Positions 16,166 to 26,366 of a stretch of DNA of 32,546 nt are shown here, piece after piece. The notes under the pieces were generated by a model. The model was not told the origin of the DNA and searched no databases. It saw only the letters and a list, made by a program, of their open reading frames with translations. The translations under genes were made by a program, and so were the position numbers. Position 1 is the first letter of the stretch. The number at the start of each line of letters is the position of its first letter. The stretch comes from Deferribacterota bacterium (lineage in GTDB: Bacteria > Chrysiogenota > Deferribacteres > Deferribacterales > UBA228), in assembly GCA_034189185.1 (NCBI GenBank), contig JAXHVM010000004.1, forward strand, positions 1 to 32,546, given 5' to 3'.

Positions 16166-17749
16166 ATGAGATATATATTAATTTTTTTATTAATCATAAC
16201 AGGTTGTTTATATAAAGGTGTTGGTTATTCAGAGAGTGAAAGTCAATATTCAGACTATCTTAAGGCTTCTTATCTATATAATTCTGGTGATTTAGATAAG
16301 GCTCTAATATATTTTAAGAAATTAGATAAAAGTAGTGATAGCGCTCATATAAAAGGGCTTATAGCAAACATATATATAAATCAAGGTAGATTTACAGCTG
16401 CAAAAAATATCTTGTTAGAGGGTATTAAAAAACATAAAGATCCAGATCTGTATTTTAAATTAGGTATTTTATATGGTAAAATCTATGATAATTGCAATGA
16501 GGCGCTATCTTATTTAGAAAAAGCTATTTCTTTAAAGAAAGATGCCAAATACTTATTAGCTACAGCTGAGTGTTATGAAAATATAGGCGAATATGTGAAA
16601 GCCCTTGATGTATATGATAGCCTATTAAAAAAGAATGAAAACCCACTCTTTCACTATAGAAAGGGTATTATCTATACAAAGCTTAATATGTTTGAACAGG
16701 CAAAAAAAGAATATATGAAAGCTATAGAAGTGGGAGACCATTTAAAATCATATTTAAATCTTTCAGAGATCTATATAATACAGAAAAATTACGATGAAGC
16801 GATAGGCTTATTAAAAAAAGTTATTGATGATTTTGGTGATATATTAGTAGCTAAAAAGAGATTAGCTGAAATATATAGTGAAACTGGTGAAAATAAAAAG
16901 GCACTTGAGCTGTTTACATCAATAATAGACAAGCTTGATGATGAAAATAAAGCCAAGATACTCAAAGAAATAGGTTTTTTATATTTAAATAATAATAAAT
17001 ATGATAAGGCCTATGAATATTTCAAAAAGGTATTGGAGATTCAACCTAGTGATTATCAAACCCTATATTTTATCGCTTTTATAAGTGAGCTTAATAAAAA
17101 CTACAAAAGGGCAGAAGAATATTACCTAAAGGCATTAGAGATTAGAAAGGATTTTGCCTTTGCAAAAAAAAGATTGGCTGTAACATATATAAATGAAGGA
17201 AAGTTTGAAGAAGCAGAGGATATGCTAGAGAGTATAGATAATGCAAGCATTGATGTTGATTACTATCTAATTAAATCACTTCTTTATAAAAAGATGGACA
17301 AGATAGATAATGCTTTGGATATACTTTTAAAAGCCAAAAAAGAATACCCAGCTAGCTTAGAAGTGCTATTTGAGCTGGCAAGTATATATGAGATGCAAAA
17401 AGAATATGATAAATGCGAAAATATTTTAAAAGAAGCTCTTGCTTTAGAGCCTGAAAACCCAATATTTTTGAATTTTCTAGGTTATCTTTATGCAGAGCTT
17501 GGTAAAAATTTAGATGAGGCCTATAAGCTTATAAATAAAGCTTTAGAAAAAGATCCAGATAACCCTGCCTATATTGATAGCCTTGCATGGGTTTTATACA
17601 AGCAGAAAAGATATAAGGAGGCATATAAACTACAAAAAAAGGCTTTAAGGAGTAATCCTAGTGAAGAGGAATTTGTAAAGCACATGAATTCAATACTCAA
17701 GGCAATGGGCAGTGATGAAACAATTGATGAGATTATTAACGAAAAATAG
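16166..17749 (+). CDS. TPR-repeat lipoprotein
   Basis: The 527-residue protein begins with a short signal peptide ending in the lipobox ITGC (lipidated Cys14), so it should be attached to the inner or outer membrane facing the periplasm. The remainder is almost wholly tetratricopeptide repeats, roughly a dozen, for example DKALIYFKKLDKSSD, AYEYFKKVLEIQPSDYQTLY and AYKLINKALEKDPDNPAYID. These repeats bind proteins, so a scaffold role in envelope or secretion assembly is plausible, but the partner is unknown. It follows accC after two bases, with no strong ribosome site. The next gene overlaps its end by 38 bases. Confidence 0.85.
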   Translation: MRYILIFLLIITGCLYKGVGYSESESQYSDYLKASYLYNSGDLDKALIYFKKLDKSSDSAHIKGLIANIYINQGRFTAAKNILLEGIKKHKDPDLYFKLGILYGKIYDNCNEALSYLEKAISLKKDAKYLLATAECYENIGEYVKALDVYDSLLKKNENPLFHYRKGIIYTKLNMFEQAKKEYMKAIEVGDHLKSYLNLSEIYIIQKNYDEAIGLLKKVIDDFGDILVAKKRLAEIYSETGENKKALELFTSIIDKLDDENKAKILKEIGFLYLNNNKYDKAYEYFKKVLEIQPSDYQTLYFIAFISELNKNYKRAEEYYLKALEIRKDFAFAKKRLAVTYINEGKFEEAEDMLESIDNASIDVDYYLIKSLLYKKMDKIDNALDILLKAKKEYPASLEVLFELASIYEMQKEYDKCENILKEALALEPENPIFLNFLGYLYAELGKNLDEAYKLINKALEKDPDNPAYIDSLAWVLYKQKRYKEAYKLQKKALRSNPSEEEFVKHMNSILKAMGSDETIDEIINEK

Positions 17750-18341
17750 CTATATAATCTTTATTACACTACTTATTTCATGTTATCATAATAATACATC
17801 CTTCCTGAAAAGAGATTATAATAATTTAGATAATAGCGGAATAAGACCAAAGGTATTATCCTTAAATAAACCTATATGTAGTTATAGAAAAAAGGCAAAG
17901 GTTATATTGAAAAATAATGTGGTTAATGAAGAGTTCAATGCTATCATCGTAAATAATTGCAGAAATATAACACTTAATATCTTAGGGCTCTTTAATAGGA
18001 CTGCCATGACTATTAAGGTTGTAGATGATAGGATATTTGTTGAAGGGGATAAAGATCTAGAAAAGGCTTTGGGCACACTTATTGATGATAAACATATAAG
18101 AGAGATTGTAAAGATATTCACAATTCCAATGTTGTTGCCAGATGAAAGTTATAGATTAATAAATTTGGGTGATAATTATCTTTTTAGTAAAAATAATGAG
18201 AAAATTTATGTTAATAATAACTATCTAATTTACATGATAGAATTAGATGAAGGCTACATTCATTATAATTATAATAACAACATCTTAGATAGAATAGTTT
18301 ATAAAAATAATGAAATATTTTTAACCGTTGATTTTATATAG
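17712..18341 (+). CDS. Small lipoprotein of unknown function, possibly LolB-like
   Basis: A 209-residue protein with a signal peptide ending in LLISC (Cys24), so probably a lipoprotein. The body is predicted mostly beta-strand, with repeated turns such as NNVVNEEFNAIIV and RTAMTIKVVDDRIFVEG. That pattern and its place between a TPR lipoprotein and ispE recall the outer-membrane lipoprotein receptor LolB or the related DUF4292 group, but I cannot show homology by eye. The GTG start used here overlaps the TPR gene by 38 bases, with AAGG 9 bases upstream; ATG codons at 17715 and 17727 are alternatives. The LolC/E-type gene at the end of the window makes a Lol link attractive. Confidence 0.6.
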   Translation: MMKQLMRLLTKNSYIIFITLLISCYHNNTSFLKRDYNNLDNSGIRPKVLSLNKPICSYRKKAKVILKNNVVNEEFNAIIVNNCRNITLNILGLFNRTAMTIKVVDDRIFVEGDKDLEKALGTLIDDKHIREIVKIFTIPMLLPDESYRLINLGDNYLFSKNNEKIYVNNNYLIYMIELDEGYIHYNYNNNILDRIVYKNNEIFLTVDFI

Positions 18342-20148: not shown

Positions 20149-20727
20149 ATGGATTATTTCATAACCGGTTTAGGTAACAAGGGTGAAAAATATAGATATA
20201 CTAGACATAATATTGGAAGGCTTGTATTAGAGCTATTATTGAAAGAATTAAAGATATATCGCCTATCTAGAGAACATTTTTTTTATACATATTTATTTGG
20301 GCATAAAATATATTTGTATATACCAGATTGTTATATGAATGAGAGCGGGGTTTACATTAAGAGAGTGTTCTCTCATTTAGATGTATCAGTAGATAATATG
20401 TTAGTTATTCATGATGATAAGGATATACCTTTTGGCTATATTAAGTTTATTAAAAATGGTTCTTCAGGTGGACATAGGGGTGTGCAATCAGTTATAGATA
20501 ACATTGGAAATAATTTTATTAGACTAAAATGTGGTATTGCATCCCGGCATATTTATGATACAGCTGATTTTGTTTTAAGTAGTTTTACACAAGAGGAAAG
20601 AAATGATCTTAAATCTTATTTAGAATTTATTATAAAGGCAACCTTTTCATTTATAAAAGATGGTTTATCAAAGAGTATGAGCATTTATAATAAAAAATAT
20701 TTTAAAGACTTTCATGGAAATAGCTAG
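20149..20727 (+). CDS. pth: Peptidyl-tRNA hydrolase
   Basis: Releases tRNA from prematurely dropped peptidyl-tRNAs. The 192-residue protein shows GLGNKGEKYRYTRHNIG with the catalytic His of RHN, YMNESG (substrate Asn), VIHDDKDIPFG with the catalytic Asp, and GGHRGVQSVI where many homologues have GGHNGLKS. The length is normal. No clear ribosome site lies before the ATG, five bases after prs. In many bacteria rplY (L25/Ctc) lies between prs and pth; here it is absent. The end overlaps the next membrane-protein gene by 14 bases. Confidence 0.94.
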   Translation: MDYFITGLGNKGEKYRYTRHNIGRLVLELLLKELKIYRLSREHFFYTYLFGHKIYLYIPDCYMNESGVYIKRVFSHLDVSVDNMLVIHDDKDIPFGYIKFIKNGSSGGHRGVQSVIDNIGNNFIRLKCGIASRHIYDTADFVLSSFTQEERNDLKSYLEFIIKATFSFIKDGLSKSMSIYNKKYFKDFHGNS

Positions 20728-22459
20728 TATAGAGCTAGAATATGCGCTTTATATTTCAATATCAATTTTATTAATTATTCTTATATATTACTTTTCATTA
20801 AAAGAGTTATATCGTTTTGACACCTTTAGTGCGGTTGCTAGGTTAACAAAAAACAATATAGAGTATTTTTCGAAACCTTTATATTTAGTATTAATATTTA
20901 TAACAATAGTATCCTTTATTATCTTAATTATTATTTTAAAATTTAATATAAATATCATTCTTTCTTTTACGATAGGGGTCTTTACAACTCTTTTTATTCC
21001 ACTGTTTAGCCAAAGGACAATGTATTGTTATCTACTAAGGACAATTTATGGCAGTAATAATTATCCAAAGGCCTACCTTACACCAATCTTTCTTACTTTG
21101 TCATATATATTAATAGCACCATCTGTAATTTTTCTGTTGTGTTTTTATCTGTTTAAACAGGAAAAAGCTAATTCTTTAGAATATTTTTTATATGGCTCTC
21201 TATTTGTTAGTTTTTTATTTATTATAGGTAGTGCTCTATTTTGTTGCTTCCTTGCAAAGTATATAAAAAAAAATATTTCATTTAAGCTAAATATAGAATT
21301 TACTAAGAAGTTAATTTACAGTTCTTATGGAGTACTTTTAGAGTTTTTTTCCTCTTTTACTGTAATTTTAGCGTGTGCAACTATTTTGGGTATTTTTGTT
21401 CCCACAAGAAATATAATAAATTTGAGTAATATTGAAAATATAGATATTACCACTTTCTTCCCCATTGGTATAGTAATTATTATGGCTGTGTTTTATGTAA
21501 TATATGTGTTACTTTTTTCTATTGGAAGAAAAGTTTATCATAATGATATAATTCATTTTTATTTAATATGTTTACCTTTGTTTCTCCTTGCTTCTATATT
21601 ATTTATATTACTTAATTATATTAGTATAAAAATATTTATACCTATTTTATGTGGTGCTTTATTTAATTTTTTATTATATATTTATTATAAATTTTATTTT
21701 AAAGATAAAAATATAGATTTTTTTTATATTATTACTTTATTTTCTTTTTTTATTGGTATAGCCCTTTATTTTAGCGGATTATACGGCTTTATAATATTTG
21801 GCACTGTCTTTGCCCTTTTTAATTTAGTGTTTATTATGAAGTATTTTCTAATAACGATTGATGAATGCCTTAATAGCGGATCTTATTTATTACCAAGTGA
21901 CAATCTTTATAGATTTTATACTAAAGAAGAAAGATATAATACTTTAACAATATTAAGATTGTTACTACTTTTACAGGGTTTAATGGCAAATCTGTCAATA
22001 CTTTTTTTGATTCAATCTAAATATAATTTATCTTTAATAATCGGTAATATGTTATTTATTCCAATTTTATTTTTAATATTAGCTCTAATCTTTTTATTAT
22101 TTAATGTAGATTATAATAGAGTGCTAAAACCTAAAAATGTTGATCATCTAGATTTGCAAAAACACAATGCTAGCCTATTATTTCAAAAGTATGTAGAGCT
22201 TGTTAGTAAAAAAATAATTTTAATTCTATTTTTAATTCTATTAATAAGCGCAATTATTGTGTTTCTTACTGTTTTTTTTATGACTTTGACAGCTTTTGTA
22301 ATATATTTTATTATAACTATTATTGGTTTTTTCTTTGCAATATTTTCCAAAAAAGAGATAATTTATATTGTTACATCTAATAATATATCTAGGGTTTTAT
22401 TAATTTTAAGTTTTATTATGTATCAAATTATATTTACTATAGGCAAGACATTAAACTAG
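20714..22459 (+). CDS. Polytopic membrane protein, apparent catalytically dead paralogue of membrane pyrophosphatase
   Basis: A 581-residue, extremely hydrophobic protein with about 14-16 membrane helices. By eye it aligns collinearly with HppA encoded just downstream. Residues 44-113 match HppA 41-110 without a gap (shared Leu, Phe, FIIL, Phe-x-x-Gly, Arg-Thr and Gly positions). Residues 303-330 (ISIKIFIPILCGALFNFL...) match 319-346 with about 9 of 28 identities. SGLYG (354-358) matches AGLYG (394-398), and residues 441-460 match 492-511. The catalytic blocks of HppA ([53 protein letters not shown]) have no acidic counterpart here, and the loops bearing them are shortened. The frame is intact, so it is not an obvious pseudogene. 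It is coupled to pth and has a weak ribosome site. Function unknown; a regulatory or structural partner of HppA is inference. Confidence 0.7.
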   Translation: MEIASIELEYALYISISILLIILIYYFSLKELYRFDTFSAVARLTKNNIEYFSKPLYLVLIFITIVSFIILIIILKFNINIILSFTIGVFTTLFIPLFSQRTMYCYLLRTIYGSNNYPKAYLTPIFLTLSYILIAPSVIFLLCFYLFKQEKANSLEYFLYGSLFVSFLFIIGSALFCCFLAKYIKKNISFKLNIEFTKKLIYSSYGVLLEFFSSFTVILACATILGIFVPTRNIINLSNIENIDITTFFPIGIVIIMAVFYVIYVLLFSIGRKVYHNDIIHFYLICLPLFLLASILFILLNYISIKIFIPILCGALFNFLLYIYYKFYFKDKNIDFFYIITLFSFFIGIALYFSGLYGFIIFGTVFALFNLVFIMKYFLITIDECLNSGSYLLPSDNLYRFYTKEERYNTLTILRLLLLLQGLMANLSILFLIQSKYNLSLIIGNMLFIPILFLILALIFLLFNVDYNRVLKPKNVDHLDLQKHNASLLFQKYVELVSKKIILILFLILLISAIIVFLTVFFMTLTAFVIYFIITIIGFFFAIFSKKEIIYIVTSNNISRVLLILSFIMYQIIFTIGKTLN

Positions 22460-22474
22460 ATATAATTTCATATA

Positions 22475-22510
22475 TTGAAAATTTAAAATATTTATATTAT
22501 AGTAATTACT
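22475..22510 (+). promoter_or_regulatory. hppA: Promoter of hppA with adjoining 10-base palindrome
   Basis: TTGAAA (22475-22480), 17 bases, then TATAGT (22498-22503): five of six consensus bases in each box at ideal spacing. A perfect palindrome AGTAATTACT (22501-22510) overlaps the -10 box and the expected start site and could be a regulator site. AAGGGGG (22523-22529) is the strong ribosome site of hppA. This suggests hppA and the genes after it can be expressed apart from the upstream series. Confidence 0.5.
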
Positions 22511-22538
22511 CTAAAAATATATAAGGGGGTTAAAATAT

Positions 22539-24551
22539 ATGGATTTAAGGATTCTAGTACCTATTACTGGTGTTCTAGGTTTAATCATTGCTTTTTTGCT
22601 CTATAGTTTTATTAAAAAACAACCTGTAGGCAATAAGAAAATGGAAGAAATCTCAAAGCTTATAAATGAAGGTGTTATAGCCTTTTTATTGAGAGAATAT
22701 CGCATACTATTCATATTTATAGTTATAGTGTTTATTATATTATGTTTAACCCCATCCCTTGGTTATAAAACTGCCATAGCATTTATAACAGGTGCTACTT
22801 GTTCAGGATTAGCTGGTTTTTTCGGCATGAAAGCTGCAACAAAAGCAAATGTACGCACTGCCGAAGGGGCAAGATCTAAAGGACAAGGTGCTGCCTTGGT
22901 TATATCATATACTGGTGGTTCTGTTATGGGTTTATCAGTTGCAAGCCTTGGGTTGTTAGGTGCTGGGATTATATACCTCTTTTTTGGGGATATTGAAAAT
23001 GCAAAATATATCAATGGCTTTGCAATGGGGGCTTCTTCAATAGCGCTCTTTGCAAGGGTAGGTGGTGGAATTTATACAAAAGCGGCAGATGTAGGTGCTG
23101 ATTTAGTTGGCAAGGTTGAAGCTGGAATTCCAGAGGATGACCCAAGAAATCCAGGGGTTATAGCTGATAATGTTGGTGATAATGTAGGCGATATTGCTGG
23201 TATGGGGGCAGATATATTTGAATCTTATGTAGGTTCTATTATTGCAACAATTGCAATTGCCTCAACTGCAAGTAATACCTTGTTAACTAATTTGGGGGGG
23301 CTTCATTTGCGTACCACCCTTATGTTTTTGCCATTATTACTTGTTGTCGTTGGCCTTTTCGCATCCCTTGTGGGGGTTTTCTCAATTTTTGTTTTAAAGA
23401 ATAGAAATCCCCAACTAGCTCTTAGGTATTCAACATTTGTAGGAGCTATACTTTTCTTGTTTGGCGCATTAATTGTTATAAAATTATATAGTATTAGTAT
23501 TGGAGTTTTCTATTCCATACTAATAGGTACTATTGCTGGTATTCTCGTGGGATTAATAACTGAGTACTATACCTCAGCAAAGCCAATAATGAAAATTGCC
23601 AATGCCTCAAAAACTGGTCCTGCAACAAATATTATACAAGGCTTTGCAGTGGGTTTAGAATCTACAGTTTTACCTGTAATAGTTATTTGCATAGCCATAC
23701 TTATTGCAAATAGTCAAGCAGGTCTTTATGGTATAGGTATAGCAGCTGTTGGGATGCTTGCAACTGTTGGGGTAACCATGACAGTTGATGCCTATGGGCC
23801 AATAGCTGATAATGCAGGGGGCATTTCAGAGATGGCAGCCCTCGGAAAGGATGTAAGAAATATAACAGATAGTTTAGATGCTCTTGGCAATACTACTGCA
23901 GCTATCGGGAAAGGATTTGCTATCAGTTCAGCTGCTCTTACTGCCTTAGCCCTTTTTGCAGCTTATAGTAGTAGTGCTGATATAAAGGTTGTGGATCTTA
24001 CACAAACAAGGGTTGTTGTAGGTATGTTTATTGGGGGCTTTTTACCACTACTTATATCAGCACTAACGATGACTTCTGTTGGAAAAGCAGCAGGTAAAAT
24101 GGTAGAAGAGATTAGGAGGCAGTTTAGAGAAATACCAGGTTTATTAGAAGGCAAGCCTGGTGTTAAGCCTGATCCAAAAACCTGTGTTGATATTTCTACG
24201 AAGGCAGCATTAAAAGAGATGGTTTTGCCTGGGTTGATTGCAATTATTGCACCAATTATTGTTGGTTTTGGTATTGGTAAAGATGCATTAGGGGGCATGT
24301 TAGCAGGGGCAGTTGTAACAGGTGTATTAATGGCTCTTCTTATGGCTAATGCAGGTGGTGCATGGGATAATGCAAAAAAGGCAATTGAAAATGGCAGTGT
24401 TAAAGGAGAAGCTAAGGGTAGCGAGGCTCATAAGGCTGCTGTTGTAGGCGATACTGTGGGCGATCCCTTTAAGGATACAAGTGGACCATCCTTAAATATA
24501 CTAATAAAGTTAATGAGTATAATTTCACTAATAATTGCTCCAATTTTATAG
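22539..24551 (+). CDS. hppA: Membrane-bound ion-translocating pyrophosphatase, K+-dependent type
   Basis: Couples hydrolysis of cytosolic pyrophosphate to pumping of Na+ or H+ across the inner membrane. The 670-residue protein has about 16 helices and all catalytic blocks: [13 protein letters not shown] (184-196), [17 protein letters not shown] (209-218), [12 protein letters not shown] (417-428) and [13 protein letters not shown] (638-649). GNTTAA at 450-455 has Ala where K+-independent enzymes have Lys, predicting K+ dependence. [10 protein letters not shown] has Glu228 at the position found in Na+-pumping enzymes, so Na+ transport is likely, though some K+-dependent proton pumps share it. 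It has its own promoter and a strong ribosome site. The gene upstream is a divergent, motif-less homologue. Confidence 0.96.
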
Positions 24552-24556
24552 ATTTA

Positions 24557-25645
24557 ATGAATTTAAAGGTGGGTATTGTTGGTTTGCCAAATGTTGGCAA
24601 ATCAACACTCTTTAACGCTCTTTCACATGGACAAGCAAAGGAAGGGAATTTTCCTTTTACAACTATTGATCCAAATATTGCAGTGGTAAATGTTCCAGAT
24701 GAAAGGTTGTATAAAATTGGGGAATCTTCTAGCTCTAAAGTTATAACACCTACTACTATCCAGTTTGTTGATATAGCGGGTTTAGTAAAGGGTGCAAGTA
24801 AAGGCGAAGGCCTAGGCAATAGGTTTTTAGCAAATATTAGAAATGTTGATCTAATTGCTTTTGTTATAAGATGTTTTGAGGATAAGAGCGTTACCTATGT
24901 TACAGATAATATAAACCCAATTAGTGACATAGAGATATTAAAAACAGAGTTAATACTCTCAGATCTAGAGATCCTTGATAGGGTAAGAGAGAAGATTAGT
25001 AAACTTTATAAAACAGGTGACAAGAAGGTTAAAGAAAAGTTAGATGTTGTAGAGTATGCAACTGAACAACTTTCAAAAGGAAAATGGCTAGGCAATATTT
25101 TAAGTGTAGAGAAAAAAGGCTTAATAAAAGAGTATAACCTTTTAACAGTTAAACCCTATATATATATTGCCAATGTTGATGAGGATGCCTTGGCAAATGA
25201 TAATAAATATGTCAAATCATTAAAAGAAAGCTTAGTTGAAGATGAAGAGCTTATAAAGATTTGTTGTAAACTTGAAAGGGAATTATCTGAGTTAAGTGAT
25301 AGTGAGAAAAAAGAATTTTTAAATAGTTATAATATGATTGAGCCTGTAATAAATATCTTAATTAGAAGGTGTTATAATAAACTAAATCTTATAACCTTTT
25401 ATACAGCTGGCGAGAAAGAGGCTAGAGCGTGGACAGTAATAAGGGGTACAAAGGCAGTTGATGCAGCTGGTATTATACATAATGATATTAAAAGAGGCTT
25501 TATTAGGGCTGAGGTTGTTGATTATGATACATTTATGACTTTTAAGAATTGGTCAAGATTGATGAAGGAAGGAAAAGTGAGATTAGAGGGGAAGGACTAT
25601 ATTATAAAAGATGGGGACATCTTATATTTTAGGTTTAATATATAG
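24557..25645 (+). CDS. ychF: YchF/OLA1-family ribosome-associated ATPase
   Basis: Obg-related P-loop protein that binds ribosomes and hydrolyses ATP more readily than GTP. At 362 residues it shows GIVGLPNVGKSTLFNAL, switch motifs FPFTTIDPN and DIAGLVKGASKGEGLGN, and NVDE in place of NKxD, the change associated with ATP preference in this family. A coiled-coil insertion (about 115-200) is followed by a C-terminal TGS domain with FYTAGEKEARAWTV and AAGIIHNDIKRGFIRAEV. The ATG lies five bases after hppA with no clear ribosome site. The order pth then ychF is common; here two pyrophosphatase-family genes intervene. Confidence 0.96.
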   Translation: MNLKVGIVGLPNVGKSTLFNALSHGQAKEGNFPFTTIDPNIAVVNVPDERLYKIGESSSSKVITPTTIQFVDIAGLVKGASKGEGLGNRFLANIRNVDLIAFVIRCFEDKSVTYVTDNINPISDIEILKTELILSDLEILDRVREKISKLYKTGDKKVKEKLDVVEYATEQLSKGKWLGNILSVEKKGLIKEYNLLTVKPYIYIANVDEDALANDNKYVKSLKESLVEDEELIKICCKLERELSELSDSEKKEFLNSYNMIEPVINILIRRCYNKLNLITFYTAGEKEARAWTVIRGTKAVDAAGIIHNDIKRGFIRAEVVDYDTFMTFKNWSRLMKEGKVRLEGKDYIIKDGDILYFRFNI

Positions 25646-26366
25646 ATTAATTTTTACACTATTAATCTTTTATACCTTCTTGTTTGCTAATGATTATATA
25701 GAGAGACTGGGTGTAGTTAAGGGGGGTACATTTATACTGTTAAAGCCTAATAAAGATGCAAAAAAGCTTGTTAGGCTATATGACGGACAGACTGTTATTA
25801 TTGCTGGTGAAGAAAATAATTATTATAAGGTAAAGATAAATAATTATAGATATGGTTTTGTCCAAAAAAAGTATATTACTTTTAAAAATGTTTTAAAAGA
25901 CAGTGGGACAATATATGAAGAAAAGAAGGTTGTAAGCAATATAAAAACAATATTGACAAAATTTAATAAAAAATTATCAGATGCTGAATATTTTAAAACT
26001 TTAGGGGTTATACCACAGTTCTTATTTCATGATTATAAGCTAAATGGGACTAATTTTAATTTAGAATTAATCTACAAATGTAAAAAAATTGATAACACTT
26101 TACATAATAAGATAGGTAATGATAAATATAAATTAAATAAAATAGTTGATAAATTAATTTATTTATTATTTTATAATATGCAATTAATACAAAATGATAT
26201 GTATGAGATAAGAATTTTAACTAATAAGGATGGTTCTCTTAAACCATATGTAGCGTATAGGTTAAAACCAAACTATGAGAGAGATATGAGTGTTTTACAA
26301 GAAGATTTATCAAGATTTGTGGATATGTATACAAACATTAAAGAACCTTTTAAGGAGTGTCCATAA
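25611..26366 (+). CDS. Secreted or anchored SH3-like-domain protein of unknown function
   Basis: The 251-residue protein has an N-terminal hydrophobic signal (about residues 6-25, then FANDY) and, at about 30-95, a segment resembling a bacterial SH3 domain: GVVKGGTFILLKPNKDAKKL, then DGQTVIIAG and YKVKINNYRYGFVQKKYI. The remaining 150 residues are Lys/Asn/Tyr-rich and not recognised. The only ATG overlaps ychF by 35 bases and lacks a good ribosome site, so the start is uncertain. moaC begins on its stop codon (TAATG). A periplasmic or cell-wall-related role is likely from the SH3 part; nothing ties it to molybdopterin synthesis beyond position. Confidence 0.6.
   Translation: MGTSYILGLIYRLIFTLLIFYTFLFANDYIERLGVVKGGTFILLKPNKDAKKLVRLYDGQTVIIAGEENNYYKVKINNYRYGFVQKKYITFKNVLKDSGTIYEEKKVVSNIKTILTKFNKKLSDAEYFKTLGVIPQFLFHDYKLNGTNFNLELIYKCKKIDNTLHNKIGNDKYKLNKIVDKLIYLLFYNMQLIQNDMYEIRILTNKDGSLKPYVAYRLKPNYERDMSVLQEDLSRFVDMYTNIKEPFKECP

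Follow-up and report, generated by a model that had tools for sequence, protein, structure and literature searches.

Membrane pyrophosphatases (mPPases) form the family H_PPase (PF03030), with structures such as those of T. maritima TmPPase (4AV3/5LZQ) and of the V. radiata enzyme (4A01). The N-out/C-out topology of these proteins is unusual. The retention of a pseudoenzyme subunit next to its active paralogue is a general concept; to our knowledge, all mPPases are active homodimeric pumps. The mPPases have been described as dimers of two communicating, asymmetric subunits (PMC10897367, PMC6882861) which are joined through TM10, 13 and 15, and the communication between subunits is an open question (PMC10897367). 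A dead mPPase paralogue or an mPPase pseudoenzyme was not found in the open-access literature searched; a first-pass annotation of this DNA likewise stated that no described pseudo-pyrophosphatase of this kind is known.

The stretch of DNA analysed here (the window, 32,546 nucleotides) is contig C4 of the 2.14-Mb assembly of a Deferribacterales bacterium. The genes ispE, prs, pth, hppA, ychF, nadE, guaB and guaA are arranged as in Deferribacteraceae contigs. The part of the window with which we are concerned contains the following features:

20149 to 20727, plus strand: pth, peptidyl-tRNA hydrolase (PF01195, E 4.9e-46), found directly 5' of hppA in relatives
20714 to 22459, plus strand: divergent mPPase-like gene, predicted to be catalytically dead, of 581 aa with 16 predicted TM helices and N-out/C-out topology (intact ORF, global alignment, loop lengths, lost acids)
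22460 to 22538, plus strand: AT-rich gap of 79 nt between the mPPase-like ORF and hppA (sequence, scan)
22539 to 24551, plus strand: hppA, canonical Na+-class membrane pyrophosphatase of 670 aa, presumed active (PF03030, NF001961, catalytic residues)

The start of the mPPase-like ORF overlaps the last 14 nt of pth. A strong ribosome-binding site (AAGGGGG) is present 5' of hppA in the 79-nt gap, and a scan of this gap revealed no terminator-like site. The neighbouring HppA matches PF03030 with E=4.9e-263 (875 bits) and NF001961 with 1071 bits (cut-off 926), and its catalytic residues are conserved. It is still 78% identical to the HppA of the nearest family. Mild deviations occur in HppA at 11 columns that show no less than 93% conservation among 80 relatives (family median 2.5); these were sought as interface co-changes and are spread over several helices, with none at the catalytic motifs. 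At 25611-26366, after ychF and with a 35-nt overlap, lies the gene of a 251-aa SH3-like (PF08239) protein that is poorly conserved; relatives have it in the same gene context, but with an identity of only 22-32%. A 209-aa protein at 17712-18341, before ispE, has a lipoprotein-like N terminus and no Pfam match, and relatives carry a gene of similar size in this position.

The frame of the ORF is intact over its 581 codons, as the first-pass annotation had it, with no internal stop, while the other five frames hold 29-72 stops each. A copy of hppA drifted neutrally to 17% identity at the same base composition would carry at least 29 stops (mean 41). Hydropathy analysis of the ORF reveals 16 peaks, corresponding to 16 predicted helices; the same scan of HppA gives 15 peaks, and 16 with the known TM5 (159-177). 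Of the 38 Lys and Arg residues in the ORF loops, 33 are located in the odd (cytosolic) loops and five in the even ones, and this distribution of positive charge predicts an N-out/C-out topology, as in mPPases. Loop lengths of the ORF and HppA are correlated (Spearman 0.85), and a permutation test in which loops change places only with others on their own side of the membrane gives p=0.002. The number of helices, their collinear order, the predicted topology and the pattern of loop lengths are like those of H_PPase (PF03030). The absence of stops, together with the retained helices and the retained charge asymmetry, indicates that the ORF is maintained, and these observations, from a single sequence of one genome, argue for selection keeping the frame open.

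Searches with local methods did not identify the protein. No match was found in Pfam (including PF03030) or NCBIfam at E up to 10, nor in PDB sequences, PHROGs or PADLOC, and the ORF lies below all mPPase family cut-offs; a PF03030 search of its own genome returns hppA as the sole match. BLASTP pairs the ORF with HppA at E=0.02 over 46 residues, and hhalign against an alignment of 28 HppA sequences returns the same segment at E=0.42, so a significant profile match to the H_PPase family was not obtained. The first-pass annotation had named such an outcome as refuting its reading, and formally this is what Pfam and hhalign gave. However, local methods are weak when all they are given is a single, very hydrophobic sequence of 17% identity, and for this reason we give more weight to calibrated end-to-end tests.

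Full global alignment of the ORF with HppA gives 96 identities in 577 positions (16.6%), and 27 of the 174 aligned invariant HppA columns are kept. The collinear segments reported in the first-pass annotation lie on one diagonal in this alignment and in HMMER --max, where ORF residues 16-95 pair with profile positions 14-91 and residues 211-330 with 225-346, and the collinearity is above chance. Residual motifs include SGLYG in the ORF against AGLYG in mPPases, and YISIKIF.PILCG in the ORF against its mPPase counterpart. Scored against a profile of 87 mPPases, the ORF reaches Z=5.5 when residues are shuffled within helices and loops held in place and 7.5 when the order of helices is permuted, and none of the 4000 shuffles of either kind reaches the native score. 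Across four scoring schemes the values range from 4.4 to 5.8 and from 6.4 to 7.5, respectively. Forty-six decoys, namely non-mPPase polytopic proteins of the same genome and of relatives, average 0.5 and 0.6 in the two tests, with maxima of 2.6 and 3.2. A set of 160 artificial proteins, assembled from genuine helices and loops of the genome so as to copy the 16-helix layout of the ORF exactly, averages 0.07 in the helix/loop-preserving test with a maximum of 2.4. Helix order alone gives Z 3.65 (1 of 2000 same-orientation helix permutations at the native score) and loop residues alone give 3.9 (0 of 2000 same-side loop shuffles). With single sequences as targets, HppAs yield mean Z values of 3.1 and 4.2 and decoy targets 0.6 and 0.2, and at moderate gap costs nearly every ORF helix pairs with the HppA helix of the same number. 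An end-gap-free version of the test, a scheme which rewards short end overlaps, gives no signal.

These end-to-end scores, far above both the decoys and the layout controls, suggest that the ORF is very probably homologous to the membrane pyrophosphatases, as a highly diverged paralogue. The similarity is not evenly distributed. Significance is reached by TM1-6 on their own (Z 5.3) and by TM7-11 on their own (Z 4.9), while TM12-16 taken alone (Z 0.5) shows no residue-level similarity to mPPases, and the similar C-terminal helix which had been proposed is therefore unsupported. The idea that an outer ring of helices was kept and an inner ring lost was dropped, as per-helix scores do not differ. 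The HppA of the same genome is merely among the top scorers and does not have the top Z, and so could not be singled out as the closest kin. Two more distant mPPases, one of a 48%-identical class (L097) and one of the class present in the same-genus genome G001 (L099), score no better than shuffles; similarity to the present HppA class and not to these two favours an origin from this class.

Structure prediction adds compatibility only. From the lone ORF sequence, AF2 gives pLDDT 48 and pTM 0.27 with no fold match. With 35 HppA rows added the values rise to pTM 0.73 and pLDDT 65, and the first 35 PDB matches of this model in Foldseek are all mPPases, ahead of other folds; both results are partly circular, since the alignment itself imposes the fold, and the sequence may only be called compatible with the mPPase fold.

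Two cytosolic loops in which the catalytic site of an mPPase would be expected are altered:

21257 to 21343, plus strand: codons of loop 5-6 of the ORF (residues 182-210), rich in Lys and without Asp, in place of the HppA catalytic loop with its 15-letter motif
22343 to 22384, plus strand: codons of loop 15-16 of the ORF (residues 544-557), shortened from the 49 residues of HppA to 14 and lacking a 14-letter motif of HppA

Counts that do not depend on the alignment give two Glu and no Asp in loop 5-6 of the ORF against 11 acidic residues in the same loop of HppA, and one Glu and no Asp in loop 15-16 against seven. Within the predicted helices of the ORF there is no Asp or Glu at all. The Asp and Lys positions of the hydrolytic centre (TM5-6, 11-12 and 15-16; residue list from PMC6882861) are non-acidic, replaced or deleted. 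At the ion gate, D6.50 corresponds to E210, E6.53 to S213 and K16.50 to F567, and the set D6.50, E6.53/E6.57 and K16.50 is not found in the ORF. Trimming of the cytosolic loops, noted in the first-pass annotation, is confirmed for loops 5-6, 9-10 and 15-16. Its statement that every acidic motif is missing holds for the catalytic acids and is too strong as worded, because D225 of HppA, the gate Asp of TM6, aligns with E210. Unlike H_PPase, then, the ORF has no hydrolytic-centre acids, no 14-letter motif and no DNVGDNVGD, its three loops are short and its helices are rich in Phe, Ile and Leu and poor in Gly and Ala. Gly and Ala together make up 6.9% of the ORF, compared with 24.8% of HppA, and helix packing must accordingly differ between the two. 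Given homology, the loss of the acids that bind PPi and Mg2+, of the catalytic loops and of the gate ion pair makes it almost certain that the protein would be unable to hydrolyse PPi or to pump by the known mechanism.

The distribution of the gene is narrow. In each of the 23 distinct genomes that allowed both pth and hppA to be read (Deferribacterota and Desulfuromonadales-type bacteria), hppA comes immediately after pth with no gene between them, and the same gene beside hppA in related genomes, for which a survey had been suggested, was not seen. An mPPase is present in 48 of 51 Deferribacterota genomes and a second one in none of the 51, secondary matches being far below cut-off. Completeness is 64% for the same-genus genome G001, whose contig ends inside pth, so that this genome is silent on the ORF; no hppA of the present class was found in this partial assembly. 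G001 does encode an mPPase of a different class (L109, contig C23, 5840-8296), about 30% identical and 818 aa long with a signal-peptide-like N-terminal extension, which sits directly after a mutS-like gene; the genome of the window is without that mPPase class. Searches of phages, plasmids and viral contigs gave no homologue, and an origin from these sources was set aside. About 1,150 further genomes also gave none, a result that proves little at the low sensitivity of tblastn. Weak tblastn matches in three genomes (G003, G010 and G017; E ~1e-4) were rejected as relatives, as they fall in a short 2-helix protein elsewhere in the genome. Absence from every other readable pth-hppA junction means that the gene is, at present sampling, lineage-specific or highly diverged. 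If derived from the local hppA, whose product retains 78% identity to the protein of the nearest family, the ORF must have diverged very fast. The duplicate had been called ancient; it looks lineage-restricted and fast-evolving instead.

Among the possible explanations, we favour a diverged and dead mPPase paralogue that works as a non-catalytic membrane subunit of mPPase fold, to which we assign a probability of roughly 0.45. Such a protein would retain the N-out/C-out scaffold of 16 helices without catalysis, and co-production with HppA is probable, because its frame is kept open and it has a place in the pth-hppA gene row. An unrelated membrane protein with 16 helices, which came by chance or by transfer to lie between pth and hppA and is similar in topology by convergence, would account for the missing local profile match, for the empty junction in relatives and for a composition unlike that of HppA. 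It is improbable, however, as the residue signal extends beyond topology (Z 5.5 against the maximum of 2.4 in artificial proteins of identical layout) and decoy families used as targets fail to match the ORF. Similarly long odds apply to a functionless relic of a tandem duplication, decaying and open by chance. The ORF is known from one species only, its GC content is low at all codon positions (0.263/0.241/0.165) and its codon usage matches other genes weakly (12 nats over 581 codons), all of which would suit a relic; the stops expected in neutral copies of this divergence and the maintenance of 16 helices with their charge pattern would not.

The partner of a non-catalytic subunit would most simply be an HppA protomer, and a dead protomer paired in this way could cap, tune or halve the pump. 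That the ORF tunes a pump of two asymmetric subunits is our leading proposal, yet a tentative one, weakly held and hardly more probable than an independent role. It is weakened by TM12-16, which include two of the three interface helices and show no similarity, and this lack of signal speaks against a strictly conserved dimer interface in the predicted protein. The position of TM13 and TM15 in the undetectable third would fit an mPPase-derived scaffold reused apart from HppA as a channel, a transporter or a membrane scaffold, and so would the open frame, the extreme divergence with changed composition and the Glu210 at the position of the ion-gate Asp. We regard such an independent role as less likely than not, though almost as probable as pairing with HppA; against it, the ORF adjoins hppA, the absence of membrane-buried acids gives no hint of a substrate path, and no independent homologues have been seen.

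The favoured reading, a non-catalytic subunit derived from an mPPase, resembles known pseudoenzyme subunits in that a predicted dead copy with an intact frame adjoins the active gene. It is possible, at somewhat less than even odds, that we are dealing with an mPPase that has a dedicated dead partner subunit, and is thus heterodimeric or regulated, or with the first non-pyrophosphatase on the mPPase fold. If this is true, a natural dead relative adjoining the active gene would offer a ready tool with which to study subunit communication in mPPases, and it would indicate that the fold of an ion pump can be repurposed or can serve as a regulatory subunit.
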